Positions 23,690-57,843 of a DNA stretch of 64,000 nt are shown here, in pieces. The notes beneath the pieces were generated by a model that saw only the letters and a list, made by a program, of their open reading frames with translations, was not told where the DNA came from and searched no databases. Origin of the DNA: Dysidea avara (Eukaryota; Porifera; Demospongiae; Dictyoceratida; Dysideidae); assembly GCF_963678975.1 (NCBI RefSeq), contig NC_089276.1, positions 31,636,368 through 31,700,367 on the forward strand, given 5' to 3'. Both the position numbers and the translations under genes were made by a program. Numbering within the stretch: the first letter of the stretch is position 1; every line of letters begins with the position of its first letter.

Positions 23690-24320
23690 ATCGAGATATA
23701 CTCTAATAGAGCAGTCACCTATAACTACTCTAATAGAACATTCACTGGAAACATGTAGTTGGTTCTGTTACGGAATGTTTCCAAATCTGCCTGCATCTAT
23801 ACATACAATGAAGTGCATTGGTCTGTTTAAAGGGCTTCATTCATCTACTTGTATAGTTAATATGTATGGCAATACTTAATTCAGGTACACAATTTCCATT
23901 GAAAATGCTCTCAGATTCAATCTTAATTGTATTGTTCAAATTTCAAAATTTTCCACTTTCAACATTATTATTCTAACATGCACCTATTCAGTGTTGTGCA
24001 ATTGTGAGAGGGGTGCATCATGTGCTTGGTTGTCTATACCTACCCAAACTTTCCATTAGCAAAATGCTTCAGAGAGTCATACCTATAATCTAAAGGCAGT
24101 ATATAAAATATCTACAGGCAGAAAATATTATGAATTTTATGTGGACATATCTCCAAATTGCAGTATTTTAGCATCTATTTTTCAAAATATTCCTCGGGTG
24201 GGGGGGGGCTGTTTCCAGCATGCTTCACATGTTGGGAAGTGTGCTTCGCACACCTCTACCCAAGAGGTTAGTACTTTGAGTTAGCCCCCCCCCTTTTTAT
24301 AAATCCTAGATCCGCCCCGG
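23690..24320 (-). mobile_element. hAT-like element (5-bp TSD family), truncated
   Basis: Inverted relative to the full copies at 32201-33062 and 43842-44701. It keeps the end AAATCCTAGATCCGCCCC and the body, but is cut off at the internal 27-bp motif (23690-23717), losing about 230 bp and one terminus. Confidence 0.75.
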
Positions 24321-30457: not shown

Positions 30458-31075
30458 CAGGAGCGGATCCAGGGGAGGGGGGCTGAAGCCCCCCTTCATA
30501 TTTAGGCTTTACTTGATCAATATGCTGAGTATTACAATGAAATTTTTTCTTAGCATTATTATATAATTAATAATAATACAAATACTCCTAAACCCACCTT
30601 ATAAACATTTTTCCAAGGTATTATCAGTGGATTTATGTTAAAGGTTATGCAACAAGGACCAGGATCAGCATGGAAGTTGTACAAGATCGAGATACTCTAA
30701 TAGAGCAGTCACCTAACTACTCTATATCAATCAGTGGATGGTTCTGTTATGGAATTTTTCCAAAGCTATCTGTACCTATGCATACAATGAAGTCTGTTTA
30801 AAAGGTTTGATTCATCTACTTGTGTAGTTGTTATGGATGGCAATACTTAATTCAGGTACACAATTTCCATTGAAAATGCTCTCAGATTCAATCTTGTATC
30901 ATTCAAATTTCAAAATTTTCCAATTTCAACATTATTATTCTAACATGTACCTATCGTTGTGCAATTGCTGTGCATCATGTGCTTGACTGTCTGAACCTAG
31001 CTACACAAACCTTTCCATTAATAATTGCTGCAGAGAGCAATACCTACAAATCTGAAGGCATCATACAGTATATAA
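30458..31075 (-). mobile_element. hAT-like element (5-bp TSD family), truncated
   Basis: Starts CAGGAGCGGATCCAGGG, inverted relative to the full copies. It carries the 27-bp motif at 30685-30711 and stops where the hairpin-rich repeat (31076) begins, losing the other terminus. Confidence 0.75.
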
Positions 31076-32200: not shown

Positions 32201-33062
32201 CAGGGGCGGATCTAGGATTTATAAAAGGTGGGGGGGCTAACTCAAGGTACTAATCTCTTGGGTAGAGATGTGTGAAGACACTTCCCAGCATGCAAAGCAT
32301 GCTGGAACTAGGGGGTCTGGGGGCATGCTCCCCCAGGAAAAATTTTGAAAAATAGATGCTAAAATATTGCAATTTGGAGACATTTCCACATAAAATTCAT
32401 AATATTTTCTGCCTGTAGATATTTTATAAAGATCTACTGCCTTTAGATTGTAGGTATGGCTCTCTGAAGCATTTTGCTAATGGAAAAGTTTGGGTAGGTT
32501 ACAGACAACCAAGTACATGATGCACCCCTCTCACAATTGCACAACACTGCATGTTAGAATAACAATGTTGAAAGTGGAAAATTTTGAAATTTGAACAATA
32601 CAAGATTGAATCTCAGAGCATTTTCAATGGAAATTGTGTACCTGAATTAAATATTGCCATACATATTAACTACACAAGTAGATGAATGAAGCCCTTTAAA
32701 CAGACCAATGCACTTCATTGTATGCATAGGTGCAGGTAGATTTGGAAAAATTCCATAACATGTTTCCAGTGAATGTTCTATTAGAGTAGTTAGCTGACTG
32801 CTCTATTAGAGTATCTTGATCTTGTACACCTCCAATGCTGATTCGAGTCCTTGTTGCATAAACTTTAGCATAAATCCACTGATAATACCTTGGAAAGATG
32901 TTTATAAGGTGGTTTTATGAGTATTTGTATTATTAGTGATCATACAATTATGCTAAGACAAAATTTCATTATAATACTCAGCATATTGATCAAGTAAAGC
33001 CTAAATATGAAGAGGGAGGCTTCAGCCCCCAAAGCCCCCCCCCCTCCCTGGATCCGCCCCTG
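32201..33062 (+). mobile_element. hAT-like element, complete, 5-bp TSD
   Basis: Terminal inverted repeats CAGGGGCGGATCTAGG and CCTGGATCCGCCCCTG. GGGAG is duplicated at 32196-32200 and 33063-33067. The interior has a strong hairpin (GGGGGCATGCTCCCCC), then AT-rich DNA and the 27-bp motif at 32795-32821. No coding capacity. CAGGGGCGG ends are usual for hAT elements; the 5-bp TSD points to a hAT5-like group. Confidence 0.85.
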
Positions 33063-36375: not shown

Positions 36376-37309
36376 AATAATTATAGCTATACTAATAAAG
36401 TGACATCGTTTCCTGTGACAGCGTTGAAACCGGGTCGGGTCGGGTCGGGTCGGGTCTATGGAACGCCGTTTGTAACAAAAATATACCTGACTCCAGCTAC
36501 CTTATTATCGCCGATGATAAAACACCATCCTTATTATCGCCGATAATAACACTTATTATCGCCGATACTAAGACCTCGCCTTATTATCGCCGATAATAAC
36601 ACTTATTATCGCCGATAATAAGACCTCACCTTATTATCGCCGATGATAAGACCACAGCTTTATTATCGCCGATGATAAGACTACAGCTTATTGTCGCCGA
36701 TGATAAGGACTCTAACTTATTATCGCCGATAATAAGACAGCGCTTATTTTCCTAGGATATAATTAAGACAGCGCTTAAATTATGTCCTCGGGCGCGTATA
36801 TAGATCTATTAGCTTTTATTATTAATAATAATGTTAGCTAGCTAAGTCATGGCTGCTTCAGTGAATCATGGAATCATCAGTGACCAGCTGCAGTATGGAG
36901 TTGAACAAGGTCGTAGGCAGACACCAGCTGATCTAATCAAAAATAATTATTTCGAGGGGCAAATTTTTCGAGGTTGAGCATTGTTGCTAAAAATTTTCGC
37001 GGATTTGCAAACACTCCCAAAATGTATTAGCTAGATTATATGGAGGTCTAGAATAAACTTCTCGCTGATAACTACCCCCATGCAAAACCGCGAAAACTAC
37101 TGATTTTCCCCTCAAAGTATTTGGTACAATACCTAATACATGCATCATATGCAACTATCCAAATCATCAATCTTTATTAACAGATCATGTTATAAATGGT
37201 AGCTACATAACACACATGCAAAAATCATTAAAGTAATATACACAGCGTCCTGGCTACAACTGGTGTACTGACAGTCAACAAGCATTCATGTCCCAAGCAC
37301 AGTTATCGA

Positions 37310-38238
37310 TCAGCTAAAACTGATGGCATTGAACTCTTTCTCAAACTCAAGATAGCTGAGATAGGTTGAAGGCAGTTCCAATTCACACCCACATGTATGG
37401 GCAGTAGGTCGCCAGGCGAATCCTGATAAGCTGTTAAAGCCAACAGTTATATGTTCACCAATCAACACTAAACTCCCTGTGGTATACCTCAAGAAACACC
37501 TAGCCTCTTCATTCTTCATGTTCCCAACATAAAGCTCTAAATAGCCAAAAACAGTTGCTTGGGTAGAATTCTCCTCAATGGGTTCATCTAGTATAGCCAA
37601 AACCTTTTCTGGAGTCGCACTAAGTGAATNNNNNNNNNNNNNNNNNNNNNNNNNNNNNNNNNNNNNNNNNNNNNNNNNNNNNNNNNNNNNNNNNNNNNNN
37701 NNNNNNNNNNNNNNNNNNNNNNNNNNNNNNNNNNNNNNNNNNNNNNNNNNNNNNNNNNNNNNNNNNNNNNNNNNNNNNNNNNNNNNNNNNNNNNNNNNNN
37801 NNNNNNNNNNNNNNNNNNNNNNNNNNNNNTAGAAGGGACTCCACAGCCAATGCTTACCATTTGCATGCAGACATGGAATAAGCAGGTTTGATCCTTAAAA
37901 AAAGTGGAAATAAGCAAATGCAGAAAACATATCATGACACACTCCACCATAGTCTATTGCCTGCTCATTTGCAAATTGAATTTTGAGAGGAAACTCTTCA
38001 AACACTTTATCTTTGCTCAAAAGTTCCATGGTATCTCGAAACACTTCTTTTCATCATATCACATAAGCAGTCAGAATTGGAGGTGTCACTGGACAAATTT
38101 GGTTCACAAACTCCAAACTTTTGTCTTCCGCTACAACATACAAAGCTATATAGTAACATTTTGTAAATTAATACCATATCACATACCTCTCTCAATAATT
38201 TTTCTGTCTTCTGGGAAGAGTTCAATGCCATTTTAGCT
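37310..38238 (-). pseudogene. HECT-type E3 ubiquitin ligase domain gene, interrupted
   Basis: Read on the - strand. The first visible exon (to 38187) encodes GIELFPEDRKIIER. A 56-bp GT-AG intron follows (38186-38131). The frame then continues AEDKSLEFVNQICPVTPPIL into the HECT N-lobe (VFRDTMELLSK, FPLKIQFANEQAIDYGGVCH). After the 200-bp assembly gap comes the C-lobe: TPEKVLAILDEP, CFLRYTTGSLVL and AHTCGCELELPSTYLSY with the catalytic Cys, stop at 37310-37312. HECT enzymes carry ubiquitin as a thioester before passing it to a target. At least two stops near 38060 and one near 37895 break the N-lobe, unless unseen introns remove them. It sits between the long inverted repeats, so it is transposon cargo. 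Similar HECT sequence is in element 2. Confidence 0.75.
37630..37829. other. assembly gap (200 N)
   Basis: Exactly 200 undetermined bases inside the HECT region; its true length is unknown. The missing part should hold the middle of the HECT N-lobe. Confidence 1.
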
Positions 38239-39189
38239 GATGATGACTATGCTTGGGACATGAATGCTCTTTGACTGTCAGTACACCAGTTGTCAAGTCA
38301 TTAGGTCTAAGTCCCTGAAATTAGGTTAGGTAATCCTAAGGCTGCAGCACATGTTGCTGTCAGACCTTCAGTGCTGGTCACTGTAAAGTGCTAATAATAA
38401 TAAATAAAAATAATAATAAACATTGATGATTTTGGATAGTTGCATATGATGCATGTGTTAGGTATTGTACCAAATACTTTGAGGGGAAAATCAGTAGTTT
38501 TTGCGGTTTTGCATGGGGGTAGTTATCAGCGAGAAGTTTATTCTAGACCTCCATATAATCTAGCTAATACATTTTGGGAGTGTTTGCAAATCCGTGAAAA
38601 AAGTTTTTAGCAACAATGCTCAACCTCGAAAAATTTGCCCCTCGAAATAATTATTTTTGACTAGATCAGCTGGTGTCTGCCTACGACCTTGTTCAACTCC
38701 ATACTGCAGCTGGTCACTGATGATTCCATGATTCACTGAAGCAGCCATGACTTAGCTAGCTAACATTATTATTAATAATAAAAGCTAATAGATCTATATA
38801 CGCGCCCGAGGACATAATTTAAGCGCTGTCTTAATTATATCCTAGGAAAATAAGCGCTGTCTTATTATCGGCGATAATAAGTTAGAGTCCTTATCATCGG
38901 CGACAATAAGCTGTAGTCTTATCATCGGCGATAATAAAGCTGTGGTCTTATCATCGGCGATAATAAGGTGAGGTCTTATTATCGGCGATAATAAGGCGAG
39001 GTCTTATTATCGGCGATAATAAGGATGGTGTTTTATTATCGGCGATAATAAGGTAGCTGGAGTCAGGTATATTTTTGTTACAAACGGCGTTCCATACGGG
39101 CCAACCGGGTTCTGACCGGGACAAAATGTGATCATCCTGGATGGGATCACGTGCGAAGCAAATTGTTTAGTTGGATTGTACGGAATAGT

Positions 39190-39246
39190 CAGTCTGGCGC
39201 CGCCCGCCCCTTACTTTTTGAGAAGGGGCGGGCGGCGACAGACTAG
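39190..39246. repeat. GC-rich hairpin
   Basis: AGTCTGGCGCCGCCCGCCCC pairs with GGGGCGGGCGGCGACAGACT across a 13-base loop. Strikingly GC-rich in an AT-rich window. It is absent from the related element at 4390-4850, so it is an insertion. Confidence 0.75.
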
Positions 39247-39326
39247 GTACGGATATAAACGCGTCATAGTCAAGTTCTGATGTAGCTCAGCTTCTTTCGT
39301 GAGTCACGCCCACTTATCCGGACGAC

Positions 39327-39370
39327 CATAGATATACTAACCCCAATTACCTGGGGTTTGTATATCTATG
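39327..39370. mobile_element. 44-bp palindromic micro-insertion
   Basis: Ends CATAGATATAC and GTATATCTATG, with inner arms AACCCC/GGGGTT. GGACGAC is duplicated exactly at 39320-39326 and 39371-39377. The related repeat near 4680 has the site once and without the insert, which confirms insertion. Ends match the 31-bp insertion at 13670-13700. Confidence 0.75.
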
Positions 39371-39775
39371 GGACGACTGCCTGCAACCATACGTGCAATC
39401 ACGCCCATTTATCGGTGATATTAAAGTCTACAGGTATGCACTAAACCATGCTCATAGCTGCCTGCTGGCTTATGTGGAGTCATGCTCACTAATCGATTAC
39501 TATTGCACGAGATAAGTCTGGATGGACTGCCCTTGCCTACCACCCCCAGCACAAAGAAAGCATGTGCTGGACAACTGAATAAAAAGGACCAGAAAGCGTA
39601 TCTTGTTTTTGCAAACTTACATGGAATCGTGCCCACTGACTACCATCGTTAAGTATAGACACCCTCGTGCTTAACGCTAGTCGGCGCAAAACGTAGCAGT
39701 TGGCGCACGCCTCACTTTAAATTAATCCGGTCAGGGGTCATCCAGGTCAACAGTAGTGACCCGGTTTCAACGCTG

Positions 39776-39941
39776 ATAGGTGAGAACTTGTCTAGACTAG
39801 TCTGGCGGTGCGAAACAGCTGGCTTTAGCTGGCTGGACCATGTGATCGAATCATCTATTTAAGGTGCAGAGCAGCTGTTCCAAAGTGGCATTAGCTATGA
39901 ACAAATTGAAATAAAGCTCATCAGATTGATTAGACGAGAGA
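39776..39941 (+). promoter_or_regulatory. 5' flank of SEFIR-Death copy 3
   Basis: Keeps scattered identity to the flanks of copies 1 and 2 (GTGATCGAAT, TTTAAGGTG, CCAAAGTGG, AGATTGATTAGAC), more diverged than those two are from each other. Confidence 0.45.
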
Positions 39942-41027
39942 ATGGATTACGTCTCAACTTGCGTTCCTGATGTGGCACAGTTTTCACGGATTCATAAGCC
40001 AAATAAACGCCAACAATCATTTCATGGCTATGATCCATCATCTACTGCGACCAACAACGAGAAGTTACAACACCAGTGTAGCCATAGGGTCTTCATCTTG
40101 CACTTTAATGGTATTGCGGATGTTCGAGGTAGAGCGATTATGAAACTGGCTGTGAAGCTGAGAGAAATGTGTGTTGATGTCACTATTGATCTGTTTGAAT
40201 ATGACACCCCTCCTAAGAATTGGACAGCTTGGTATGAGCAAAAGCTAAGGGAGTCAGATGTTGTCCTCTGTATGATTGATGAAATGTTCTACAACAACCT
40301 GACAAGTGGTAGTCGAGTGGTGGGGTACACTGTATACAACTTGATGAATGACCCAAACACGGATGTCACCTTCAGAGCAGTGTTCCTTGACATGCCAAAG
40401 AACATGGAGTATGTACCACCAGCAATGCAAGGAGGAACATCATATTGCTTATCATCAAGTTGTTTTGGTGTTGAGAGTGAGGAATTTGCTAGTCTCTATG
40501 CATATTTAACTGGTCAAAATCGAATACAGAAACCCAAGCTAGGCCAAATGGTTAAACTTGCTCCAAAAACAGGAAGGTTTGGTCAAAACAAAGTTAATCA
40601 ACATGAGCAACAGATGCAGAGACGTCATGATCATCAATTTAGCTATACACAGTTGACAAATACCGCTTCTTTGCAAGATCCACGAAGTAGTCAAGCTAAC
40701 CTCATATTTAATCTTCTAGGAGATGATACTACACAAGTCGGTGTACTTCCTTCCCATCAGAGAATGCTCATGTCACTGGCAGCAAACATGGTAGCAGAGT
40801 GGGAGGCTTTGGGCAGAATGCTATATGTCAGTGAAGCAGATTTGTATGCTATCAAAAGAGATTACATGTTTTCAGTGCAAGAACAAGCTGTACAGGTGCT
40901 TCGCAAGTGGCTGGACAAGAATGGCTTGAAGGCAACTCTAGGGGTTCTTATTACAGCAATTTATAGTTTAGGACCATCATATTGGAATTTACTGGACATT
41001 GTAAGTAAGTATGCACAAATAAGATAA
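39942..41027 (+). CDS. SEFIR-Death domain protein, copy 3
   Basis: 361 codons, single exon, same layout as copy 2: leader, SEFIR domain (VFILHFNGIADVRG, VDVTIDLFEYD, SDVVLCMIDEMF), Q/H-rich linker (EQQMQRRHDHQFSYTQ), then the Death domain (MVAEWEALGRMLYVSEADLY, EQAVQVLRKWLDKNG). It is the most diverged of the three copies, mainly in the leader (MDYVSTCVPDVAQFSRIHKP) and linker, while SEFIR and Death stay almost unchanged. That pattern suggests both domains are still under constraint. A cytoplasmic adaptor role in IL-17-receptor-like or other Death-domain signalling is inferred from the family. Its 5' neighbour is the nested HECT element and its 3' neighbour the shared downstream module. Confidence 0.88.
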   Translation: MDYVSTCVPDVAQFSRIHKPNKRQQSFHGYDPSSTATNNEKLQHQCSHRVFILHFNGIADVRGRAIMKLAVKLREMCVDVTIDLFEYDTPPKNWTAWYEQKLRESDVVLCMIDEMFYNNLTSGSRVVGYTVYNLMNDPNTDVTFRAVFLDMPKNMEYVPPAMQGGTSYCLSSSCFGVESEEFASLYAYLTGQNRIQKPKLGQMVKLAPKTGRFGQNKVNQHEQQMQRRHDHQFSYTQLTNTASLQDPRSSQANLIFNLLGDDTTQVGVLPSHQRMLMSLAANMVAEWEALGRMLYVSEADLYAIKRDYMFSVQEQAVQVLRKWLDKNGLKATLGVLITAIYSLGPSYWNLLDIVSKYAQIR

Positions 41028-41451
41028 ACATTGCTCTTGTATATTGATTGTAATATTTGTACACATCGTACAGCATTGATGATGATGTAAATTAATTTTC
41101 TTGTTTCTCAATGCAAAATAAATTACAAATGCATATATGCATGGTTGCGTGGATTATGACTCGATAAGCTCCTGTAATAATAGTTCAGCAATAATTTATA
41201 TCAAGATGCACTATCATGTGTCTTGATATAAATTATTGCTGAACCATTATATCAATCCACACAACCATGTATATGCATTTGGATAGTGTGTCATACAACC
41301 AAAAAAGTTGGTGTATCACACTAGTGTGTTATTAACTGCATGGGAGAATAAAAATGCGATTTTCATACATACGTAGATCTATGGTGTCTATGAAGCAAGA
41401 CACTTTTGCTATGCGAGTGCCCTAGTCTACATACCCAAATATGAACATAAT
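41028..41451 (+). repeat. downstream module of SEFIR gene, copy 3, first part
   Basis: Head sequence as behind copies 1 and 2, with a foldback at 41150-41280 (ATAATTTATATCAAGATGCA against its complement). It is broken off at ATGAACATAAT by the insertion at 41452-43337 and resumes at 43338. Confidence 0.65.
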
Positions 41452-42556
41452 CAGGGCCGGAGGAGGGAAAATTGAGTTGGTCAGGCCATTGACTATAATG
41501 TTGAAATTGCTACTATATACATGCCAATGAGAGAGGAGCTGTTGCACAGTGTGCGAAGCACGAGCATTCTAGGGGGGTCTGGGGGCATGCCCCCAGAGGA
41601 AAATTTTGAAAATTAGACACTCAGATATGCAATTTTAGTGATATTTCACTGCTAGCTAGCTATATAAATATGCTCAAGCCTATATCTGTTGTTCTGCAGA
41701 CTTTCTGTACTATCTATAATTGTAGACCTGACATACAGGGGACACAGCATGAAACTTGCTGTATGGTTCATTTACTTAAAGTTCAAGGGAGGTCTGGGGT
41801 GCAACCCCCAGGAGCTGCAGAATTTTTACAATTTAAAATGTCTTAAATTTTAAAATTGATGCTAAATTTTAAAGTAAACTAGCTAGCAACTTGCAACTTT
41901 CCCCCCACATTTCACAGGGAACCCATGCAGCATGGCCCCCTTTAGCTAGGATACAAGTACTATACAGTGAATTCACACAGCTACAATAAAAAGCTACACA
42001 GCTACAAAAATACAGTATACTACTATACTGGTTTGTATTAAGTGAACGGATCATCACGTAAATATACTGGTGGACAGTCACGAGACCAATCAGTATTCGA
42101 AAATGGCACTATGTGGGTGAGACAGAGTTTGCTCAGTATCTCGACAGGACGAGTGGGTAGTTGAAGAGGAGTGATTTCTACTCAACATCTCATCCAGATG
42201 GCCACCATGTAATGTATGGTACCGGTGTACAGCTTCTTGCCGCAGAATGAGTCATCTGGTTTGTCACTGCCAGCCCTTCCGCGCCCAGTAAAAGAAGCCA
42301 AGAGAGACAAGCCAAGGAATGCTAATGATTATTTTATGAAGATTGAATTGTGATATAAGTGTGCTGGTTTAGAATCAAAGAAGGCACCTGCCTTACACGT
42401 GATAAATGCCAACTGTCAGCACACGTGATACTGTACGTAGAACCCACAATCATTTCTGTACAAAACGATACGAATGCAATGCTGTACTGTAAGGTAATTG
42501 GAGTTACTATACGTGTAGTTCTGTGCTTTAGTTAGGCTGAGAAACTAGGTAACTAC

Positions 42557-42587
<31 letters not shown>

Positions 42588-43337
42588 TAGCAAAGCCCAC
42601 CAGGGGCAACACGCTAATGTTCATTACAATTACACACAATACCAATCAGATTGTTCTTAAAAGTGTCAATGTCAGTCTTGTCAATATCAGAGATAGGTAG
42701 TTGGTTCCATTGAATAATTGTTCGTGGTAAGAAAGAGTATTTGTAAACATCGATTCTTGTTGGTAAGTGAAATAGCTTGAGGGAGTGGTTGGAACGAGTA
42801 TATGATACTGGAACTGATAGTGGTATACAACGATCAGGTATGACTATTAACCTTCTCAAAATTTTAAATAGCAAAATAAGTCGAGTCATTGTCCTTCTGT
42901 CTTGGAGACTAGGCCATTCAAGGTATGTCAGCATATCTGTTATACTGTCGTGTTGTTGCTCACTAGATCTGAACCATGGTTTGTTTAGAACAAAACGAGC
43001 AGCCCGATGCTGGATCATTTCAAGTTTGTATATACTTGTATTGTGGTAGGGATCCCAGATGGCTGAACAATACTCAATGGATGGTAGTAATAGTTGTTTG
43101 TATAGGTGGTCTTTAATTTCTATTGGTGCAGTGTGCAAGGTCCTTTTTAGGAAGCCAAGAAGTACTCGTGTCATGCATTTTCAATAACATCTGTAAAACG
43201 TACGTAGCCACATGTAGATGTGATCGTCCAAAGATTGCATGAGAGTAATATAGCTCGAGCTGGTCAACTAGTTGGTTCAACTCCAGATTATTGGTCCGGC
43301 TCAGGCCTGACCAACCGGACCGTTTCCTCCGGCATTG
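41452..43337. mobile_element. hAT-like element with 5-bp TSD, holding a LINE
   Basis: Diverged terminal inverted repeats CAGGGCCGGAGGAGGGAA and TTTCCTCCGGCATTG, similarity continuing to GTTGGTCAGGCC inside. ATAAT is duplicated at 41447-41451 and 43338-43342. The paralogous downstream modules of copies 1 and 2 show the uninterrupted site (GAACACAATTGCTTAC). The left part carries the hairpin GGGGGCATGCCCCC in the same setting as the 32201 family. Confidence 0.75.
42556..43190 (-). mobile_element. LINE 3' half-kilobase, 5'-truncated
   Basis: On the - strand a 186-codon open frame covers the region behind the RT (LYKQLLLPSIEYCSAIWDPY, ITDMLTYLEWPSLQDRRTMT, IIQWNQLPISDIDKTDIDTF). It is followed by a 3' UTR (GTTGCCCCTGGTGGGCTTTG) and a (TAA)n tail at 42556-42586. 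Same family as 27125-27430. Classic 5' truncation. Confidence 0.85.
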
Positions 43338-43800
43338 ATAATTGCTTACAAAAATGAAGGGGTCAGTTATAAAATGTTATGAGTTTCCTGCAGAGAGTTC
43401 TGCTACATACAATTCATGATGTAGAGAATTCAGCTACAAACAAATCACCTTGTACAAAATTTAGCTACAAACAAGTAACTGCAGTAAATTCAGCTACTAA
43501 CATTGCAATTCCTACAGATAACATTTCACCCTATAGAAAATTTGGCTTTGTTCCAAGTTACCCTGTAAAGAGCTCAGCTACATACATAACAGGTCACCCT
43601 GTAGAGAGTCCAGCTACAAAACAAATCACCATGTGGAGAGTTCAGCTACATTACAAGTCTCCCTTGAGCTACACCCTGTAGAGAGGTCAACTACAAACAA
43701 GTCTCCCTAAAACATTACCCAGTAAATATTCAACTGCAAGCAATTCATCTTGTAGACAATTCAACTAGTCACCCTGTGGAGAAGAGAAGGGCCAGGGGTG
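43338..43800 (+). repeat. downstream module of SEFIR gene, copy 3, second part
   Basis: Continues the head (TTGCTTACAAAAATGAAGGG), then decayed minisatellite monomers (GAATTCAGCTACAAACAAAT, GAGAGTTCAGCTACATTACA) to about 43790. The order equals that behind copy 2. Confidence 0.65.
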
Positions 43801-43841
43801 CAAAACCTCACTTGGCCTCCCTTCAGATCTGCCTATGTTCA

Positions 43842-44701
43842 CAGGGGCGGATCTAGGATTTATAAAGGGGGGGTGGGGGGGGGCTAACTCAAGGTACTAA
43901 TCTTTTGGGTAGAGGTGTGCAAAGCACACTTCCCAGCATGCGAAGCATGCTGGAACTAGGGGGGTCTGGGGGCATGCCCCCCCAGGAAATTTTTGAAAAA
44001 TAGATGCTAAAATACTGCAATTTGGAAACATTTCCACATAAAATTCATAATATTTTCTGCCTGTAGATATTTCATATACTGCCTTTAGATTATAGGTATG
44101 GCTTTCTAAAGCATTTTGCTAATCAAAATGTTTGGGTAGGTACAGACAACCAAGTACACGATGCACCCCTCTCACAATTGCACAACACCAAATATGTGCA
44201 TGTTAGAATAATAATTATAATGTTGAACGTGGAAAATTTTGAAATTTGAACAATACAAGATTGAATCTGAGAGCATTTTCAATGAAAATTCTGTACCTGA
44301 ATTAAGTATTGCCATATATATTAACTACACAAGTGGATGAATGAAACCCTTTAAACAAACCAATGCACTTCATTGTATATATGTATAGGTGCAGGCAGAT
44401 TTGGAAAAATTCCATAACAGAACTAACTACATGTTTCCAGTGAATGTTCTATTAGAGTATCTCGATCTTGTACACCTCCAATGCTGATCCGGGTCCTTGT
44501 TACATAAACTTTAGCATAAATCCACTGATAATACCTTGGAAAGATGTTTATAAGGTGATTTTATGAGTATTTGTATTATTAGTGATCATATAATTATGCT
44601 AAGACAAAATTTCATTATAATACTCAGCATATTGATCAAGTAAAGCCTAAATATGAAGGGGGGGCTTCAGCCCCCAAAGCCCCCCCCTGGATCCGTCCCT
44701 G
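43842..44701 (+). mobile_element. hAT-like element, complete, 5-bp TSD
   Basis: Same family as 32201-33062: ends CAGGGGCGGATCTAGG and CCTGGATCCGTCCCTG, TSD GTTCA at 43837-43841 and 44702-44706. Hairpin GGGGGCATGCCCCCC near 43970, 27-bp motif at 44441-44467. Confidence 0.85.
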
Positions 44702-44719
44702 GTTCAGTAGCACACATGC

Positions 44720-45934
44720 AATGCCAATTAGAAAAAATATTTTTAAGGCCCATGTAGCAACACCAGTTTTATTCTTACATCTGACCTCCCTCCCTAGCCT
44801 AATGTTCATTAAAAACTTTAATTTGCTATACTCTGAAAAATATTATTTCTATACAAATATAATTATAGTCTGACAACTTATGTGCTAATTGGCCAGCAAT
44901 TGTTTGGTGTCCAACCATTACTTGTGCCCAAGATGCTCTATATCAGCATTGGAAGATATCCAATGAAATGCCTGGAAGAATTTTGATGACTCCCTGTTTG
45001 GTTACAGAACAAAGCACTTTTAGCAGTTGGCATGAGATTTTCAAGGGCTTCCTAATGGTGCAAATGTGAAATTCATAGCTTATTGCATTAGCAAGTTACT
45101 ATTAATTTATATGAATGCATAGCTACTGAATCAGCATGTCAATAATAATAATAATCTACTATATATGTGTAGTCTTCAGAAAATGCAATAATTGGCCACC
45201 TTGAATGGTATCAATCAGTTAAATTTGGATGGTCAGCTTACAGACTTATGGTCTGAGTGTAACAACATAATTATTAATTTTTATAAAATTAATAGTTAAT
45301 TTATTGTTATCACAATTATACACATGCAATGAAGTAAAATCGGCATAGTACCTTTCTTTGTACATAATTATAGGTTTAAGTACAGCACATGAATGTGAAA
45401 CTAGGTAGATATGCTTTACTAAATTGCACAACAATCACAAGATAGCTTTCTTTCAAAAACATACTATTTTAATAAATATCAGGTGCTGCAAAATTTCTGC
45501 ATTATTGTTACAAAATTTAGAACTAGATACAATAGATCTAAAAACCATAAATGTACAAATAGTTGAATAATTGTGGTTGTTACCATGGTAACAAGTGTAC
45601 AAAGATGTGATAATCCTTGAGAGTAATCATGTGCAAAAAAAACAGAATTAAAGTATGCTGGTGGTGTAGATCAAAAGTTACAATCAAAAATATGAAATTT
45701 AAAATTTCTTGGAATTGATATCTTGTTGCACCATAAACAGGGGCCGTACAGTGGGAAAGCTACTAATTCAGCATTGCTATCATGCTAATATACAATCTAT
45801 AAACACGTATCTTTCAGGAAATGTATGATAGGATTGGCCACCTTGAATGGTACTGCTCGGTCAAATTTGGGTGGTTGGCTCACAGACTATTATTGTTAGC
45901 TATGTTGTAAGGAATCATTTAAAGTCTCCAATTC
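44720..45934. repeat. dispersed repeat scraps, no gene
   Basis: The part 44735-44942 matches 21337-21420 (inverted) and 22245-22330 (direct). A block starting GGCCACCTTGAATGGTA occurs at 45193 and again at 45839, about 646 bp apart. No coding signal. Confidence 0.5.
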
Positions 45935-46011
45935 TTGTTAGGTTAGGCAATCCAAAGGCTGCAGCACATGTTGTCAGACCTTCAGTGTTGGTCACTGTAA
46001 AATGCTAATTA
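45935..46011 (+). mobile_element. LINE 3' end
   Basis: GGTTAGGCAATCCAAAGGCT through GTTGGTCACTGTAAAATGCT matches 38322-38392, where it ends in (AATAAT)n. Here element A begins in place of the tail. Confidence 0.55.
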
Positions 46012-47069
46012 TACAACCAAGTACTAAGAATAATACGAAACGCGGTTAAAATTACGTCATAAATAAATAAATAAATAAATAATTAAATAATTAATAATTA
46101 ATGTTTGAGAAAACTACGAGGCCTAGAGACATGAACTAACCGGGGATAGATTCGCCTGTGAATGAAGGCACAAACGTATAATCATCGCTCCTGTTTGTAC
46201 TGATGACTTGACCATACGTGTAATTCTATATAACGCCCAGTACCACACCCTTGCTTAATTACTTACATATTGCGCGAAGAAGATTAGTGATGCCCGTGCA
46301 GGAGAGCCAGAAGCCACTTGTGTAAACAAGAAGATTACAAGTAAGTTTTTATGTTAGTAACATCTCAAGTCTCCATGCCAGCTGCCAGTGGATTCATTCA
46401 CGTAAATAAACAATACAAGAAAACATTAAACTGACATATGCCACGCTCTTTACAATAAGCTTACAGTTATGGGGTGCCATTTGTGCCAAAATAGTACAAA
46501 AACACCTTATTTATAAACTATAACCATACTTTATAAATCAATACACTACTTTATAAAGTATAGACATATACTTTATAAATCATACACATACTTTATAAAT
46601 CATAGACATATACTTTATAAATCATACTTATACTTTACAAATCATGCATATACTTTACAAATCATGCATATACTTTATAAACCATACACGTAATTTGTAA
46701 ACTATTAACATACTATATAAACATGATTTATTAGGCATTTAGTATTTCCACAAACACATGATATTATCGTTTGGTAATGATTGTCAATAATCGATACCTT
46801 TCTGCACGTGTAGAATAAATCCTCGCACGTGCAACCGAAAGCAGGATGGCGGATGTCGTACCGGGTTATCACAAGCTTTGGAACAAGCGTTTTTAACATT
46901 TGCTGGGGCAATAACACAGAACCAAGTACAAAACGTATGGATCTAGCATACAACAGTGTGGCTTCCTCCGTAAGCATCCATGTGATGCCACCAGTTGTCG
47001 CAAGACTTGGACATCTCAACAAGGTATCTATTGCCTGTGGTGTAGTATTGATGTTTAATTTCAATTCAA

Positions 47070-47357
47070 ATAAACAAAGCATTGGCTGACTTTCAAGGTG
47101 GTTGGAACTCTGACACTCTGCGGTCAACTGAGGGTGACATGACTCCCATGCAATTGTACCTAGAAGTCTTCGTAGATGATTTACAGGCCACTGAGTGCAG
47201 TATCATGCCTCAAAAAGTAATCTGGATTAACAAGCAGACTACAAGATTTAATGCTAGAGGAGACGGACCTTGTAGAGATTGTTGGCATGGTTTTGTTGTA
47301 TGTCCTTTTAGCCACCAATACAACTGTACTGTAAGAAAAATGCAAACAGGTTGTTAA
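47070..47357 (+). pseudogene. C-terminal piece of a DDE integrase-like transposase
   Basis: From 47070 the + strand reads INKALADFQGGWNSDTLRST, then EGDMTPMQLYLEVFVDD, to a stop at 47355-47357. The spacing IN+L..F...WN...LR(T/S)...TP.QL is that of the last helix region of integrase-type transposases common in sponge and cnidarian genomes. The catalytic core is not visible upstream; the preceding part (46845-47040) lies in the inverted repeat. A possible 3' splice site ends at 47095, so an exon start there is an alternative. Confidence 0.6.
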
Positions 47358-47524
47358 TGAGCTTATTACCCTGGAACAGGTTGTACAGATTTTGAAAACA
47401 ATTTTATGAGCAATGTAAATACTAGGACAACACTAATTTTACAAATCAACAGTAACACATGTCACCTATAATTGATATTGTATTATATGTCATAACAATG
47501 TGTACAATTTTATATACTTAACAC

Positions 47525-48379
47525 CTAATTTCTATTAAGAAATGTAACTTGTCTTAGAGCTTTTCTGTTAAACTTCTCCATACCCCTGTGAGTTGAAGAT
47601 GTTGAAAGCATTTTTCCAACAGTATAGTAAGTGTCATTAGCAACAGCCATGACATCATGAAATAGGATTCCCAGATCAACTGCTTCTTGTCTTATGAAGC
47701 ATGCTTTCAATAATTTCTCTACATCAAACGCCTTCTTTGAAAAATGTCACAGGGCATCAGAATACACTTGTGATCTTCTGATATTGATCCTTTGAACATC
47801 CTCATTGTTTGAAAATTTTATTGCACGTAACTGATGTTGCTGAATCACATGCTTTATAACAGCACTATCAATAGGCCCTTCTCTGGTTCCCTGATAAGCA
47901 TATCATTGTATCGGTAGCTATAGAGGTGGCAGCAGTGGTACTGGTGAAAAAGGTGCAAATGGTAACATAGAGGTTGCATTGGTGTTGGAGATTGTGGTAT
48001 TTGTGATGGGGATTGTGGTGTTGATGCAGAGTAAGTTTCCACAGGACTGTTCACTTCAATATCCCCTTGATCACCCTACATGAAGAATTAATTATGTAAT
48101 TAGTCTGCAAATTAAATTATATGTGTACACCTCTACCCCTCTTCAGTGGAGTAGTGAAGGTCAGCTTGTGCCCGTATATAAATAATATTGTGCCCAACTG
48201 GCTAGAGAAGCGAGCCACCTGCTGTGGAGTCCATTAAAAGATGAGCTTTGCGATGGTATAGTCAATGATTTTGCACCAACACCTGTCACTTGCAGGTACA
48301 GAAATGAAAAATTGGAATCATTTTGCATTGTTCCTTGAAAAATTGACCAAATTTCACATTCAACATCATTGTCCATCAT
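47525..48379 (-). pseudogene. HECT-related gene remnant
   Basis: On the - strand: a leader piece (48379-48161, MDNDVECEIWSIFQGTMQND, LTIPSQSSSFNGLHS), a Ser/Pro/Gln-rich stretch (about 48054-47960), then VQRINIRRSQVYSDAL and HFSKKAFDVEKLLKACFIRQ followed by EAVD. The latter resembles the start of a HECT domain (R..v..DaLr.fs...fd..k.LkV.FigE.AvD.GG). A TGA replaces what is usually Arg after DAL, and the frame shifts before this block, so it is decayed. The lobe with the catalytic Cys is not found. It points towards the integrase piece (convergent). Confidence 0.55.
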
Positions 48380-48699
48380 CTCTGATGTGAGGTGTAGCTT
48401 ATACCAATTAGACCATTGTTTGCCAAAATAAAAGCATAAAGAGGTAAAAGCATATTAATAATGTATTCAAGTTTGGCTCTGGCTAGTTGTAGACAGTACG
48501 TGCATACTCCAAACTACTAATAATGTATGTTACTACTTAGGGCCATTGCAGAAAGACTTGAAAAGTAGTCAAATGTTTGTGTACAAGAACTCCACAATCA
48601 GCCATGCCAAAATGGTCCATATCTTCTATTGCGAACTGCGATGGCCCTTGCCCAAAGCTCATCGAAAATTATCTATTTCCTACTACATCTTTCATAAGA

Positions 48700-49079
48700 G
48701 AACAGCCATTGATTTTTAAAAATATTTTCAATTCCGAGTCAATATGTTAGCCACAAGGTCACATTCTTTGACTTTGAACCTAGTGCCATTAACTATTAAC
48801 GCATTTAGGCCACACTCTCCTTTTTGGTGGTTGCACCAATGTTATGGAACTCTACACCATTGGCAGTTTTGTCTCAACTAACTGCAGGAAATTTTACGTA
48901 TAGGCTTAAGTATTTAGTTTGTAATTGTGTGGTCTTTTGTGTGATTGTTAAATATAGCTAGTTAGCTTAAGTAGTTTAATTTTGTTTTGTATTTGTGTCT
49001 AATAATAATTATATAATTGTACCTAATACTGTAGTTTCCTTTTTTCTTGGGCACATCATCTGTGCTGATTGCCCAGTAA
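48700..49079 (+). mobile_element. LINE 3' end
   Basis: The + strand reads PMLWNSTPLAVLSQLTAGNF in the C-terminal LINE pattern from about 48837, after a frame change from MLATRSHSLTLNLVPLTINA (48747 on). The 3' UTR ends TCTGTGCTGATTGCCCAGTAA and is cut by the insertion at 49080. Confidence 0.65.
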
Positions 49080-49377
49080 CAGGGATGTACTGAGGGGGTT
49101 TCAGGAAACCCCTTTGGATTTTACACAGTACTTGAAAAATAAAAGAAATTGAAACTTCAGGTTTCCGGAATGTGGAAACTATCATGGAACAGGACTTTAC
49201 ATAGTTAAATAATAGTTTCTAACATGATGGCAACACCTGCAGCATTGTTCTGAATTATGATTTTGGTGAAAAGATTGAGATACTCTAATAAAGCAGTCAG
49301 ATAATATAAACTACTCTAATGTAACAGTCACTTAGCTGTAGGGGAAACCCTTTTCAAAATTACTGCGTACGCCCCTG
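49080..49377. mobile_element. small hAT-like element, 6-bp TSD
   Basis: Ends CAGGGATGTACTGAG and CTGCGTACGCCCCTG, with CAGTAA duplicated at 49074-49079 and 49378-49383. Carries the 27-bp motif at 49273-49299 and a second half-copy about 30 bp on. A related copy without clear ends is at about 55140-55460. Confidence 0.65.
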
Positions 49378-49383
49378 CAGTAA

Positions 49384-49920
49384 TCATAAACAGATAAACT
49401 GTAGGTGCGTATGTATGTTCTGTGTTGGGGACCACCTTGTACAGGCTAGCCTTTTATGTTAGCTACCCTTCTTCAGAGAAATAGAGCACGCTTCTTTTAC
49501 CCCTACTACTGGGGAATGGGAAAAGAAGCCATAGTTTTCTATAGATGTTTGGCTGACCTACTGTTTCATTGAGATTCAACTGCATACAGCTGTACTCTGG
49601 CCTGCACACTGTCCTTTTCTCTGTTGCCCTCAACAACAGTGTGTATCAGTGGTAGTAGGTCCACCTTGCTACGATCTGCTAACATCTCTCCAGAGATGGG
49701 CCACTGTGATGAAAACAGGGACTACTGAGTCCAACCTTCTGTCTCTTAGTTGTCCAGCACATGCCAACTAGTGCTGGGGATGGTGGCAAGGGCAGTCCAT
49801 CTAGCCCGGAAATAACAATAAAAAACAATAATACTATAAGTAACACTTTATATTCCATTCACCCCAATTCGGGTTAGTTAATTAACTTGCCTCAAGCAGG
49901 CAACTCCGAAAGTAGCTAAC
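49384..49920 (+). repeat. LINE 3' UTR and dispersed scraps
   Basis: The part 49410-49490 matches the LINE 3' end at 10310-10388. The part 49755-49805 is the inverse of 39510-39570 (GGATGGACTGCCCTTGCC). No gene is supported. Confidence 0.5.
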
Positions 49921-51117
49921 ACATGTAACAACTTGGTTAAATACCTTGTTGAAGAAGCAATAAGAGCCGGAGAGAAAGTGGTTGTGGAAGCGTCGGAAGC
50001 AACTCAGCATGGCCGAGTGAGGTGGCTGATCTCAGAGCCGAGATTGGCTGTTGGACCATGGGTCCAGTCAGTCTGTGGTACACATTGCTGTGACGTAGTT
50101 AGTTCTGCGCTATATAGCCCCAGCGAATGGTAAAAACACTTGTTCCAAAACTTGTGTGACCAGGTAAGACCCGAGGTAAGACCTGCTTTAAAAGCTGCAC
50201 GTGCGAAGATTTATTCTACACGTGCGCGAAATTACTTTATCGATTACTGACAATCGTTACCAAACGATAATATCATGTGTTCGTGTTTGCTTATTGAAAT
50301 GCTAAATGCATAATAAATCATGTTTATGAAGTATGTTAATAATTTACAAATTACGTGTATGGTTTATAAAGTATATGTATGATTTATAAAGTATAAGCAT
50401 GATTTGTAAAGTATAAGTATGATTTATAAAGTATATGTCTATGATTTATAAAGTATGTGTATGATTTATAAAGTATATGTCTATACTTTATAAAGTAGTG
50501 TATTGATTTATAAAGTATGGTTATAGTTTATAAATAAGGTGTTTTTGTACTATTTTGGCACAAATGGCACCCCATATACAGTTACATATAAAATACAAGT
50601 AAACAATTTTGTCTTGTGCAGCTGGCATGGCGAACTTTCTTTGTGTTGGTGTCAGGCAATTCAATACGTGCTTAATCTTTTTTGCCTTCACCTGGCGTAG
50701 CTACTAGGCTCTAGTGGCTTGGCTATCTTCCTTTATCTGGTTCATCTGGCTTGCATACGCCTACAGCATTGTGTAGCTATCTCCTGCAAGTTGTGTATGC
50801 ATAACTATAGTGTGTCACCCATCACTGTGCCATTGCTACATCACTGATGAACCTTACTTAGCTGTAGTTGATGTTGATATGCATTGCTGTATATATTGGC
50901 TAATAATTTTTATCTGCATGGTGATGTTGCCTATAATGTATTGCTGCATACAATACTGCAATAATGTATAGTTCTCTCCTGTATGTTTTGTATACATATA
51001 CTTTGTACACATCACTGTGCCATTACCACACCAATGATGTACTGGCACTTAGCTACTGGTGGCCTTTAGTTACGATGCCACTATTGTGTTATATCTGTCA
51101 CTACTGTGACATATTGA

Positions 51118-54100
51118 CAGTGTTGGGAGTAACGCGTTACTTATGTAACGCGTTACGTAATATTATTACTTTTGTGGTAACAAAGTAATATGTGACTGGA
51201 TTTTGGAAAAACGATCCAAATCGCACATTGGAAGTTCCGAGATAAACGGTTTTAAAGAATTGAAGCCAGCACAACTCTCCAAGGATAGCAAGCACGCGTA
51301 TGAAATTTACACAAAAGATGCATCAATCTGTTACCTTTCAAGCCACTTCCAGTACTTGTAGCTGCTTGTACAGTTTCCCGCCAAATAAGATAGAAAATCT
51401 GAGCAGTTGTACGAGCGAAGTAGTATCACGAGTGCTCACAAAGGGGTGGAGGCTGGGGGGTGGTGGGGAGGGCAAAATTTAGACCTCAAAATGGAGGCAG
51501 ACCACGATTGGAGTCCAGACACGAGATTACAGGGCTGTGCTGGCTCCTTAGTGGCTGATATGTAGCAAAATCAACAGAGAACACGTCTGGCCAACATTAT
51601 AAGGCTGTCCACCAGTAAACCACTGACTCTTGCCAAGCCAGGTCCTTCACAAGGCCTGAAACCGCCATTTGAGCACTCCACACCACCCAGAAAAGACGTG
51701 TGTAAAAACCAGCCTCGTGTAGTTTGAGTAGTGCTGAGGGTCAGAACTTGTAGTACGATGGTGTAGCTATCCACTGGTGGTGTTAGTTTGATTTTGCCTG
51801 ATGTGCGATTTGGATCGGTTCTGTAAAATCTGGTCACATATAAATTATTTCTGGAGCATCACGTGAGATCACGTGACCTGGCAAGAATCCTGGTGCAGTG
51901 GAAAGAAGTCTGGTCAGTGTGTGGTGGCTGGCACTGGTCATGGAGTGATTCCAAAGTATGTTTTTGTGTGTTTGGCTCCTTTACAGCCAGATGAGTATTA
52001 TAATAATTATAAATTATTTCTGGAGCATCACGTGAGATCACGTGACCTGGCAAGAATCCTGGAGCAGTGGAAAGAAGTCTGGTCAGTGTGTGGTGGCTGG
52101 CACTGGTCATGGAGTGATTCCAAAGTATGTTTTTGTGTGTTTGGCTCCTTTACAGCCAGATGAGTATTATAATAATTATAAATTATTTCTGGAGCATCAC
52201 GTGAGATCACGTGACCTGGCAAGAATCCTGGAGCAGTGGAAAGAAGTCTGGTCAGTGTGTGGTGGCTGGCACTGGTCATGGAGTGATTCCAAAGTATGTT
52301 TTTGTGTGTTTGGCTCCTTTACAGCCAGATGAGTATTATATGTGACTGGATTTTGGAAAAACGATCCAAATCGCACATTGGAAGTTCCGAGATAAACGGT
52401 TTTAAAGAATTGAAGCCAGCACAACTCTCCAAGGATAGCAAGCACGCGTATGAAATTTACACAAAAGATGCATCAATCTGTTACCTTTCAAGCCACTTCC
52501 AGTACTTGTAGCTGCTTGTACAGTTTCCCGCCAAATAAGATAGAAAATCTGAGCAGTTGTACGAGCGAAGTAGTATCACGAGTGCTCACAAAGGGGTGGA
52601 GGCTGGGGGGTGGTGGGGAGTGCAAAAGTTAGACCTCAAAATGGAGGCAGACCACGATTGGAGTCCAGACACGAGATTACAGGGCTGTGCTGGCTCCTTA
52701 GTGGCTGATATGTAGCAAAATCAACAGAGAACACGTCTGGCCAACATTATAAGGCTGTCCACCAGTAAACCACTGACTCTTGCCAAGCCAGGTCCTTCAC
52801 AAGGCCTGAAACCGCCATTTGAGCACTCCACACCACCCAGAAAAGACGTGTGTAAAAACCAGCCTCGTGTAGTTTGAGTAGTGCTGAGGGTCAGAACTTG
52901 TAGTACGATGGTGTAGCTATCCACTGGTGGTGTTAGTTTGATTTTGCCTGATGTGCGATTTGGATCGGTTCTGTAAAATCTGGTCACATATAAATTATTT
53001 CTGGAGCATCACGTGAGATCACGTGACCTGGCAAGAATCCTGGTGCAGTGGAAAGAAGTCTGGTCAGTGTGTGGTGGCTGGCACTGGTCATGGAGTGATT
53101 CCAAAGTATGTTTTTGTGTGTTTGGCTCCTTTACAGCCAGATGAGTATTATAATAATTATAAATTATTTCTGGAGCATCACGTGAGATCACGTGACCTGG
53201 CAAGAATCCTGGAGCAGTGGAAAGAAGTCTGGTCAGTGTGTGGTGGCTGGCACTGGTCATGGAGTGATTCCAAAGTATGTTTTTGTGTGTTTGGCTCCTT
53301 TACAGCCAGATGAGTATTATAATAATTATAAATTATTTCTGGAGCATCACGTGAGATCACGTGACCTGGCAAGAATCCTGGAGCAGTGGAAAGAAGTCTG
53401 GTCAGTGTGTGGTGGCTGGCACTGGTCATGGAGTGATTCCAAAGTATGTTTTTGTGTGTTTGGCTCCTTTACAGCCAGATGAGTATTATATGTGACTGGA
53501 TTTTGGAAAAACGATCCAAATCGCACATTGGAAGTTCCGAGATAAACGGTTTTAAAGAATTGAAGCCAGCACAACTCTCCAAGGATAGCAAGCACGCGTA
53601 TGAAATTTACACAAAAGATGCATCAATCTGTTACCTTTCAAGCCACTTCCAGTACTTGTAGCTGCTTGTACAGTTTCCCGCCAAATAAGATAGAAAATCT
53701 GAGCAGTTGTACGAGCGAAGTAGTATCACGAGTGCTCACAAAGGGGTGGAGGCTGGGGGGTGGTGGGGAGTGCAAAAGTTAGACCTCAAAATGGAGGCAG
53801 ACCACGATTGGAGTCCAGACACGAGATTACAGGGCTGTGCTGGCTCCTTAGTGGCTGATATGTAGCAAAATCAACAGAGAACACGTCTGGCCAACATTAT
53901 AAGGCTGTCCACCAGTAAACCACTGACTCTTGCCAAGCCAGGTCCTTCACAAGGCCTGAAACCGCCATTTGAGCACTCCACACCACCCAGAAAAGACGTG
54001 TGTAAAAACCAGCCTCGTGTAGTTTGAGTAGTGCTGAGGGTCAGAACTTGTAGTACGATGGTGTAGCTATCCACTGGTGGTGTTAGTTTGATTTTGCCTG

Positions 54101-56088: not shown

Positions 56089-56616
56089 TAATGCAAGTGA
56101 TGTACAGTGAGTTCAGTGTCATAAGGTCTTTGAGTGCAATACTTGGCACTGTGTCACCATCTTCACTCCACGTTTTTTATCTACGCTTTAAATTCCAGAC
56201 TTTTTCAAATTACAAAGTATCTGATTGGCTGTTTTTCACGTGATATCACCAGCGAAAGAAACTGACAAAAAAGTGGTAAAGTGCATGTTTTGGTTGTACT
56301 TTTCATTGCCATATTAGTACTGTGCATTTTGCACGTATAGTTGTTCTATACCATATGCGTATTTTGTACCATACGCGTATGGTACATACCATATGCGTAT
56401 ACGCGTACGGTACAACCATACGCGTATGGTACGGAAAATCGTACCATCTGAGTATAGCTAACCTGGTATGCGTATAATATCAAGCAGAAGGTTTTTGCAC
56501 TGCCGTACCTATTGACTACTCCTGATGGCACTCTGCTGTTCGGGGAAGAGGGAGGGGGGAGGAGCTAGTCTTTCTGTTCAGTGAAGATCGAGATACTCTA
56601 ATAGAGCAATCATATA

Positions 56617-56870
56617 TTTTATTATTATTATATGATTGCAAGACCTCACACAGCGAGTATAAATGCAATATTCAAATCAAAATATATAGCTACAGCTAAC
56701 TAATTACAATTTTACAGTTCATTTATAAGAAGGTTGTTAAACACGGTGATAGATGAAGCTTCAAAAGTCTCTGGTTGCAAGTTGTTCCATATAGCAGTGG
56801 AAGGAAAGAAGCTGAATTTATATGTGTCAATTCTAGTGAATGGCAGGGTAAGTTGATCTGATTACTGCAA
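56617..56870 (-). mobile_element. LINE 3' end
   Basis: On the - strand the end of a LINE protein (INTYKFSFFPSTAIWNNL-like, W-N-x-L motif) near 56840-56720, a short 3' UTR and a (TAA)n tail at about 56617-56632. Confidence 0.55.
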
Positions 56871-57579
56871 TTAAGATACAATTTACTTTACCGCATAATG
56901 CAAACCTATTTAAAATAAAGCATTCCTTAAAATAAAAGAATAACATGATATCCCTGCATGACTATATATAAGTGATGAAACTGACATGACATCTTGATTT
57001 AGGACAATATATGATAAAACCAATCATGAATTCATCACAGTGTTGACAGATCCAGTCTTGAATTGTGTTAAGTCCTGCTGATCTGGTAGGATCTGATGAA
57101 ATTCTACATTGTCAAAACTAATAAAGGTCAATCATCTGGGTTGGAAGCTTTACGAAAAACATGATAACACCTAGCTGCATACAGTATAAGTCTGAAAAGT
57201 ATAATCAAAGGAAGGGGATTAAATATAATATGTCTTGATTTATACGTAGTCATTGGTGTATATCTATAGCTATAACAATGTATCTCGTTGTCTGTTTAAC
57301 ATTTCATTTCATCAAAGCATCTGACAGTTCCACAAAATACATGCAATAGAGCCATCACCCATATAATTATGATGGTTTATGTATAAGCACCTGTGGATTA
57401 TTTTCTTGATGTCTTCTGACTTTTGTACATATTGATTTATTGCCTCGTCCTGCTGTCTACTGCCTTATTTGTCATGGATTTCCATCTTGCATTTTTATAA
57501 TAAATGACTTCATTTATCCACAGTGTAATTGATTTGAAAGTACACAAGCTGGCATACTGTATATGTTGTTGAGTTAAAA

Positions 57580-57843
57580 TGACCAGGTTTGTGAAAAGGT
57601 ACCTTTTCCACACATTTTACATACCAGCAAACAAAATGGCGTAACACTTGACTCCTTACACTGATAAACTTGCTCTTAGTATCAAAATGCAGATAGATAC
57701 TAGTAGCTACTGTACACTCATGGATAATTGCATACAGGCAATTATAAGGTATATGTTCAAAAACTTACGAAACCCCGAAGTTCAAAATATACATGGGTCA
57801 AATTTTGTCGGTGAAAAAGGTACTTTTTTGCAAATCCGGTCAC
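57580..57843. mobile_element. possible MITE
   Basis: TGACCAGGTTTGTGAAAAGG (57580) and the inverse of TGACCGGATTTGCAAAAAAG (to 57843) form an imperfect 24-bp inverted pair. The end resembles GTGACTGGATTTTGG of the 651-bp foldback unit at 51192. Confidence 0.5.

Follow-up and report, generated by a model that had tools for sequence, protein, structure and literature searches.

The window analysed here, a 64,000-nucleotide stretch of the genome of the sponge Dysidea avara (contig NC_089276.1, positions 31,636,368 to 31,700,367 of the forward strand), contains two related transposons, hereafter elements 1 and 2, each of which carries sequence related to HECT ubiquitin ligases (Table 1). The first-pass annotation of the window had placed both of them exactly. 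They have TATGG..CCATA tips (end sequences TATGGAACGCCGTTTGT in element 1 and TATGGGGTGCCATTTGT in element 2), and within the window the motif TATGGnnnGCCrTTTGT is confined to their four ends. Long terminal inverted repeats (TIRs) bound both elements, of about 720 bp in element 1 (639 aligned bases at 96.6% identity plus a 96-bp tip at 98%) and of 483 bp at 88% in element 2, and the TIRs contain tandem arrays with units of 28-29 bp and 20-22 bp. These units had been described as palindromic, which holds for element 1, where the unit is a near-perfect palindrome (20 of 21 positions self-complementary), and only partly for element 2, where a palindromic core, TTTATAAA, occurs 15 times and a 14-base palindrome, TACTTTATAAAGTA, twice; the idealised 16-mer palindrome is absent from element 2. 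Similarly, of the two 6-bp target site duplications (TSDs) that had been claimed, the one of element 2 is perfect (TACAGT on both sides, 6/6), whereas the flanks of element 1 (CGGGTC/CGGGCC) agree in only 5 of 6 bases and are adjoined by a CGGGT tandem repeat.

Table 1. Features of elements 1 and 2 in the window, and full-length elements found elsewhere in the same genome.
Feature	Position	Strand	Basis or remark
Element 1, probable non-autonomous HECT-bearing IS3EU/GingerRoot-type transposon	36457..39096		ends, TIRs, flanks
Element 1, left TIR	36457..37180	+	palindromic-unit array at 36499-36739
Element 1, HECT C-lobe	37313..37627	-	open frame, TAHTC cysteine motif
Element 1, 200-N assembly gap between HECT N-lobe and C-lobe	37630..37829		sequence
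Element 1, HECT N-lobe start	37862..38167	-	interrupted by stops and a frame change
Element 1, HECT 3' end repeated in inverted orientation (source 37256-37338)	38216..38293	+	89% over 83 bp
Element 1, right TIR	38414..39096	-	array at 38859-39054
Element 2, probable non-autonomous relative retaining remnants of the two genes	46468..50576		ends, TIRs, TSD
Element 2, left TIR	46468..46929	+	array at 46510-46722
Element 2, open frame with C-terminal end of integrase-type transposase core	47052..47357	+	PF24764, residues 6-45
Element 2, HECT N-lobe relic	47528..47902	-	one in-frame stop; faces the integrase remnant
Element 2, right TIR	50095..50576	-	array at 50323-50518
Full-length element A	C8:1647907-1657310		TSD CTCCCG
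Full-length element A'	C6:9786691-9796135		TSD CGTACG
Full-length element B (L030 joined to L039)	C14:11665917-11675553		TSD GTATTG

The HECT-related sequence reported earlier on the minus strand was recovered in both elements, intact in neither. In element 1, the C-lobe (60.4% identity over 101 amino acids, E-value 3e-35) and the start of the N-lobe (41.9% over 105 amino acids, E-value 5.8e-17) align with the HECT of the full-length element A. The Pfam HECT profile alone gives 16.8 bits, under its cut-off of 23.9, and a transposon-HECT profile gives 267 bits, one member of that profile being from element 1's own family. No match to a transposase was found in element 1. The integrase-type C-terminus that had been noticed in element 2 matches the end of PF24764 (E-value 7.8e-5, 22.9 bits, under the cut-off of 26). 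The HECT relic of this element gives no Pfam match and 8.3 bits with the first transposon-HECT profile; with an N-lobe profile it reaches 24.0 bits (E-value 4.1e-6), and 2000 shuffles reach at most 11.7. It should be noted that the N-lobe profile was built from five transposon HECTs after the family was known, which makes this a targeted test. Among the 1284 six-frame segments of the window, element 1 (82.6 bits) and element 2 (23.0 and 21.4, overlapping) rank at the top and the next segment scores 2.3. The C-lobe of the HECT was not found in element 2. As judged from their sequences, the HECT genes of both elements are dead relics.

The window's own genome (550.8 Mb) was then searched; only the best candidates were scored, so that the numbers of matches are lower bounds. 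Profile searches gave at least 107 matches to PF24764 and at least 122 to the Pfam HECT domain. Full elements were found by fetching two PF24764 loci and, after the HECT search, six further loci, some of which were extended. In three of them (A, A' and B), of 9.4-9.6 kb, a transposase and a HECT gene lie tail to tail between matching ends with TATGG..CCATA tips and perfect TSDs. The lineage pairing a DDE integrase with a HECT ligase, which the first-pass annotation had deduced from the relics of the window, thus has complete representatives. A and A' are 97.8% identical over 9.1 kb, which suggests that both moved fairly recently. They carry the end motif of element 1, the tip of A being equal to that of element 1 in 25 of 26 bases, and B represents a third family. 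Element A reads, in order, TIR, plus-strand open frames, a last HECT exon of 372 amino acids, the reversed transposase with its C-exon and then its N-exon, and TIR. Element B has a forward single-frame transposase of 482 amino acids and a reversed HECT gene with a C-lobe-like end bearing the cysteine. Both convergent genes of B are headed by a pair of SAM-type exons, and these two pairs are inverted relative to each other and 79% alike at the DNA level; SAM_2 is matched at 22.5 bits on the transposase side (cut-off 20.5) and at 18.2 and 17.2 bits, under the cut-offs, on the HECT side. In addition, part of A is present again at L035 (98.4% over 2.3 kb), and L032, L033 and L034 contain both genes in convergent orientation.

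As separate observations, reverse-transcriptase-like open frames, judged by eye from translations, lie in or beside HECT-bearing elements at L011, L015, L022, L031 and L033. Furthermore, Pfam HECT matches flank one PF24764 core on both sides at C11:14321354, 14326485 and 14330544, and likewise at C4:35118457, 35126755 and 35135264, an arrangement that looks like a larger element with one ligase copy in each arm.

The association between both genes was also evaluated across the genome. Matches were merged into loci (98 A-type HECT matches into 59 loci, 43 B-type into 40, 122 Pfam HECT into 68, and those to PF24764 into 86), and the expected counts assume uniform placement, a null model that ignores the clustering of transposons. 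Among the retrieved A-type HECT loci, 22 of 59 lie within 5 kb of a PF24764 core, with 0.10 expected; 21 of these pairs are convergent with gaps of 314-804 bp, and one is divergent at 2861 bp. Within the same distance there are 14 of the 40 retrieved B-type loci (0.07 expected; 12 convergent and two same-strand) and 11 of the 68 retrieved Pfam HECT loci (0.12 expected; nine convergent and two same-strand). At 10 kb, 17 Pfam HECT loci are paired with a core, five of them divergently. Seen from the transposase, 40 of the 86 retrieved PF24764 loci have a HECT match within 5 kb. By sequence similarity, the type of HECT also sorts with the transposase at a coarse scale: the partner transposase is at least 48% identical to that of A in 18 of the 22 A-type pairs versus none of the 14 B-type pairs, the cut having been picked after the values were seen and the compared stretches being unequal in length. 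With the four copies of A left out, HECT type against transposase similarity gives a Mann-Whitney p of 6e-5.

Regarding the copies of the window elements, the TIR of element 1 has at least 59 matches in the genome (the best 40 of 1246 candidates were scored). Other copies do carry HECT, a point on which the first-pass annotation had made its proposal depend: it was matched in 16 of the 20 fetched element-1-type regions, and the N-terminus of the transposase of A in 10 of the 20. One of these copies, L021, has a 387-amino-acid open HECT frame that reaches 27.8 bits with Pfam HECT, above the cut-off of 23.9. The TIR of element 2 has at least 66 matches and its coding core at least 44, of which 24 (the window copy counted) span 850 bases or more with at least 83% identity; two more distant ones, at 77% and 74%, overlap with matches to PF24764 (C11:7737392 and C6:33502546). 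Exact matches to the pattern TATGGnnnGCCrTTTGTnnCAAAA number 252 forward and 273 reverse in the genome, and those to the reversed pattern 0 and 0. Among the 18 listed elements with both ends (elements 1, 2, A, A' and B included), 14 have identical 6-bp flanks; the flanks of L012, L016 and L020 disagree, and the remaining case is element 1 with its 5 of 6 bases. Twelve of those 14 belong to the family of elements 1 and A, and their TSDs end in CG in 12 of 12 cases, seven being CGNNCG. As CG makes up a share of only 0.0166 of the dinucleotides of the window, this family would seem to prefer targets ending in CG.

At the protein level, both HECT lobes are present in L031, L021, L032 and L033, which exceed the Pfam cut-off, and in A, which aligns to E6AP over 54-354; the window copies, being relics, do not have the full two-lobe domain. 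The HECT cysteine (C336 in the alignment) is invariant in the four aligned sequences and matches the E6AP cysteine with its HTC motif. Between families, the HECT proteins are 36-52% identical, with proportions of synonymous and nonsynonymous differences (pS and pN) of 0.75-0.78 and 0.31-0.46, and their frames are open; the between-family comparisons use only pS and pN, the synonymous rate (dS) being infinite. The pS and pN of the transposase behave in the same way. Since the HECT frames are open despite saturated synonymous sites, selection has probably kept the ligase in some branches.

The HECT domain and the catalytic cysteine motif are common to these proteins and to the ligases E6AP, RSP5 and AREL1, whose solved chains are distant, much more so than the transposon HECTs are from one another. 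The transposon HECTs also retrieve one another in the genome search, and the genomic loci with the highest Pfam HECT scores (e.g. C13:5774315, C7:1819808 and C11:17870643) are outside the 98 matches retrieved by the HECT of A. The latter result makes a recent host capture unlikely; an old one may have taken place. Two unrelated host captures, which the first-pass annotation had named as the outcome that would undo its proposal, were rejected, because the transposon HECTs retrieve one another and pair with cores far above expectation. No relative was found in viral contigs with the HECT alignment or with the transposase exon of A. In fish and coral annotations, many transposon-like HECT proteins are named after G2E3, from which the HECT-transposase pair may be widespread and partly noticed already.

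The transposase scores 246.6 bits with PF24764 in A and 267.4 bits in B. Its D and E residues are 34 positions apart and invariant in seven sequences, the first D falling outside some exon fragments, and at its N-terminus there are weak Pfam matches to helix-turn-helix (HTH) domains, below cut-off. By ends, TSD length and transposase type, the elements fit the IS3EU/GingerRoot group, in agreement with the IS3EU likeness suggested in the first-pass annotation. We consider it likely that elements 1 and 2 are non-autonomous members of an IS3EU/GingerRoot-type lineage, whose full elements pair a convergent DD34E transposase with a multi-exon HECT ligase for which an anti-host role is proposed. In such elements, the HTH region would bind the end arrays, the DDE core would cut and join with a 6-bp stagger, and relic copies would move in trans. 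With less certainty, the ligase might work against the host by ubiquitinating silencing or repair proteins of the host in cells where the element moves. This host-directed role is favoured over regulation of the transposase because of the analogy with the TET/JBP enzymes and the Helitron deubiquitinases as they are presented in the available texts, and the target of the ligase is likewise suggested by that analogy.

Several observations weigh against this reading. There is no HECT match within 5 kb of 46 of the 86 retrieved PF24764 loci, and no core within 5 kb of 37 of the 59 A-type HECT loci, although 16 of these 37 belong to the window or to element-1-type loci that were fetched. The fine branching of both genes disagrees: the transposases of L032 and L033 are the closest (62.7%), and their HECTs the least similar (36.5%); besides, the ends of L032, L033 and L034 were not found within the 8-13 kb read. 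The HECT exon of B has no Pfam HECT match and reaches only 12.3-12.5 bits with the transposon-HECT profile. The ratios of nonsynonymous to synonymous rates are 0.37 for A/A' and 0.56 for L032/L034, on 7 and 9 differences respectively, too few to show constraint. In the 20 fetched element-1-type regions, the transposase core exon of A was not found in any, and the 10 regions with the transposase N-terminus have the HECT on the same strand, unlike the convergent A; the branch of element 1 has therefore lost the core, and its HECT is inverted. About 118 residues from the middle of the HECT are missing in most of these copies, and only L021 aligns over the whole domain (13-371 of the 372 residues of A). 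Lastly, the HECT relic of the C11 relative of element 2 is already broken, and the first HECT profile gives nothing significant there. It shares its in-frame stop with element 2, which suggests that the ligase died in this branch before the copies spread.

The same lineage could also be explained by a ligase that acts on the transposase, limiting its amount or marking the post-insertion complex for disassembly by the host p97/proteasome, which we regard as possible, though not probable. Its best hint is the SAM-type exon pair with which both genes of B start; however, the shared SAM-type domain is not recognised by Pfam in the two upstream HECT exons of A that were tested, and defective HECT copies still spread, which counts against an action on the transposase. 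The available text of PMC4411706 describes ligase activity for the RING of RAG1, a Transib-derived protein, which speaks for such an action. A more elaborate version, which we propose tentatively and consider rather unlikely, is a two-component machine in which the HECT would bind the transposase (by way of SAM in B) and ubiquitinate the post-insertion complex or the chromatin of the site for clearance by the host p97/proteasome. The Mu complex is disassembled in a ClpX-driven manner, and a machine of this kind would be a transposon-encoded eukaryotic counterpart of that system.

It could be thought, in turn, that the HECT was captured by a single ancestor and has since travelled as an unused passenger, with frames that are open only because the active copies are young, since it is broken in most element-1-type copies and in element 2, and the close pairs lack clear constraint. 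This explanation is disfavoured and seems improbable to us: HECTs that share only 36-52% identity and whose synonymous sites are saturated still have full open frames and the cysteine, and both HECT types show the pairing, mostly in convergent orientation. That the pieces were captured separately from host genes, or neighbour unrelated transposons by chance, is hardly credible. Transposons do cluster, which the uniform null ignores, and some HECT matches are 6-10 kb away in other orientations; nevertheless, at three sites both genes lie within one pair of ends whose TSDs match, the gap and the orientation are near constant in 21 of the 22 A-type pairs, and A, A' and B contradict such neighbourhood unless all three loci are misassembled. 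Chance itself was rejected by the pairing counts, the shuffle scores and the counts of the end motif against the reversed pattern.

If the preferred explanation of an IS3EU/GingerRoot-type lineage with its own HECT ligase is correct, the element could use the pairing to control or dispose of proteins that influence its movement. With a separate HECT ligase retained next to the integrase-type transposase in several families, the accessory genes of IS3EU would come to include a ligase, and this opens to test the idea that mobile DNA uses ubiquitin against silencing or to manage its own transposase. From a practical point of view, the counts of HECT genes in genome annotation may include transposon genes.

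Other repeats are present in the window. A third palindrome-array element, of another family, occupies 56343-60181 (3839 bp; ends GTTCTATACC..GGTATAGAAC), with inverted arrays of ATACGCGTA-type units (87% over 92 bp) and flanks ATAGTT/ATAGTC that agree in 5 of 6 bases. The segments 51600-52700 and 52750-53850 form a direct duplication, 100% identical over 1101 compared bases and with a 169-bp tandem repeat inside, which is either a very recent event or an assembly artefact. A satellite-like array of 2.8 kb with units of about 31 bp extends over 5717-8543, and related units recur at 43392-43651. Further long inverted repeats (85-87%) pair 23684-24318 with 32203-32826 and 30478-31060 with 32438-33030.

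We found no HECT-bearing IS3EU among the papers listed in searches of the open literature, Repbase and most subscription journals being outside the scope of the search. The terms transpos, mobile element and integrase are absent from PMC2837046, and the available portions of PMC8195603 and PMC5560861 contain nothing on HECT-bearing transposons. As far as the accessible text goes, IS3EU/GingerRoot elements are described with TA..TA ends (TAYGG..CCRTA in the fungal families), 6-bp TSDs and an integrase-type DDE transposase (PMC10045372, PMC12730594). The TATGG..CCATA ends of elements 1, 2, A, A' and B, the 6-bp TSDs and the transposase type agree with this description; the difference is the second gene, since a HECT is not mentioned and the words HECT and ubiquitin do not appear in the accessible text of either paper. 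In the TET-bearing IS3EU of fungi, an alpha-kinase faces the other way from the transposase, and the elements also carry a TET/JBP dioxygenase that the author proposes to help in escaping silencing (PMC12730594, in the parts available). The alpha-kinase is a precedent for an accessory gene placed opposite to the transposase, as in the elements described here, although the fungal accessories are a kinase and a dioxygenase and not a ubiquitin ligase. As to ubiquitin enzymes among transposons, deubiquitinases are described in Helitrons, and a RING is linked to RAG1. The VTD deubiquitinases of Helitron/Helentron elements (PMC9741609, in part) are likewise encoded by a transposon, but they strip ubiquitin rather than add it, and the element is an unrelated rolling-circle one. 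In RAG1, which derives from a Transib-type transposase, the RING ties ligase activity to a relative of DDE transposases (PMC4411706, in part); there the RING is fused to a host-gene recombinase, whereas in the sponge elements the HECT is a separate gene.

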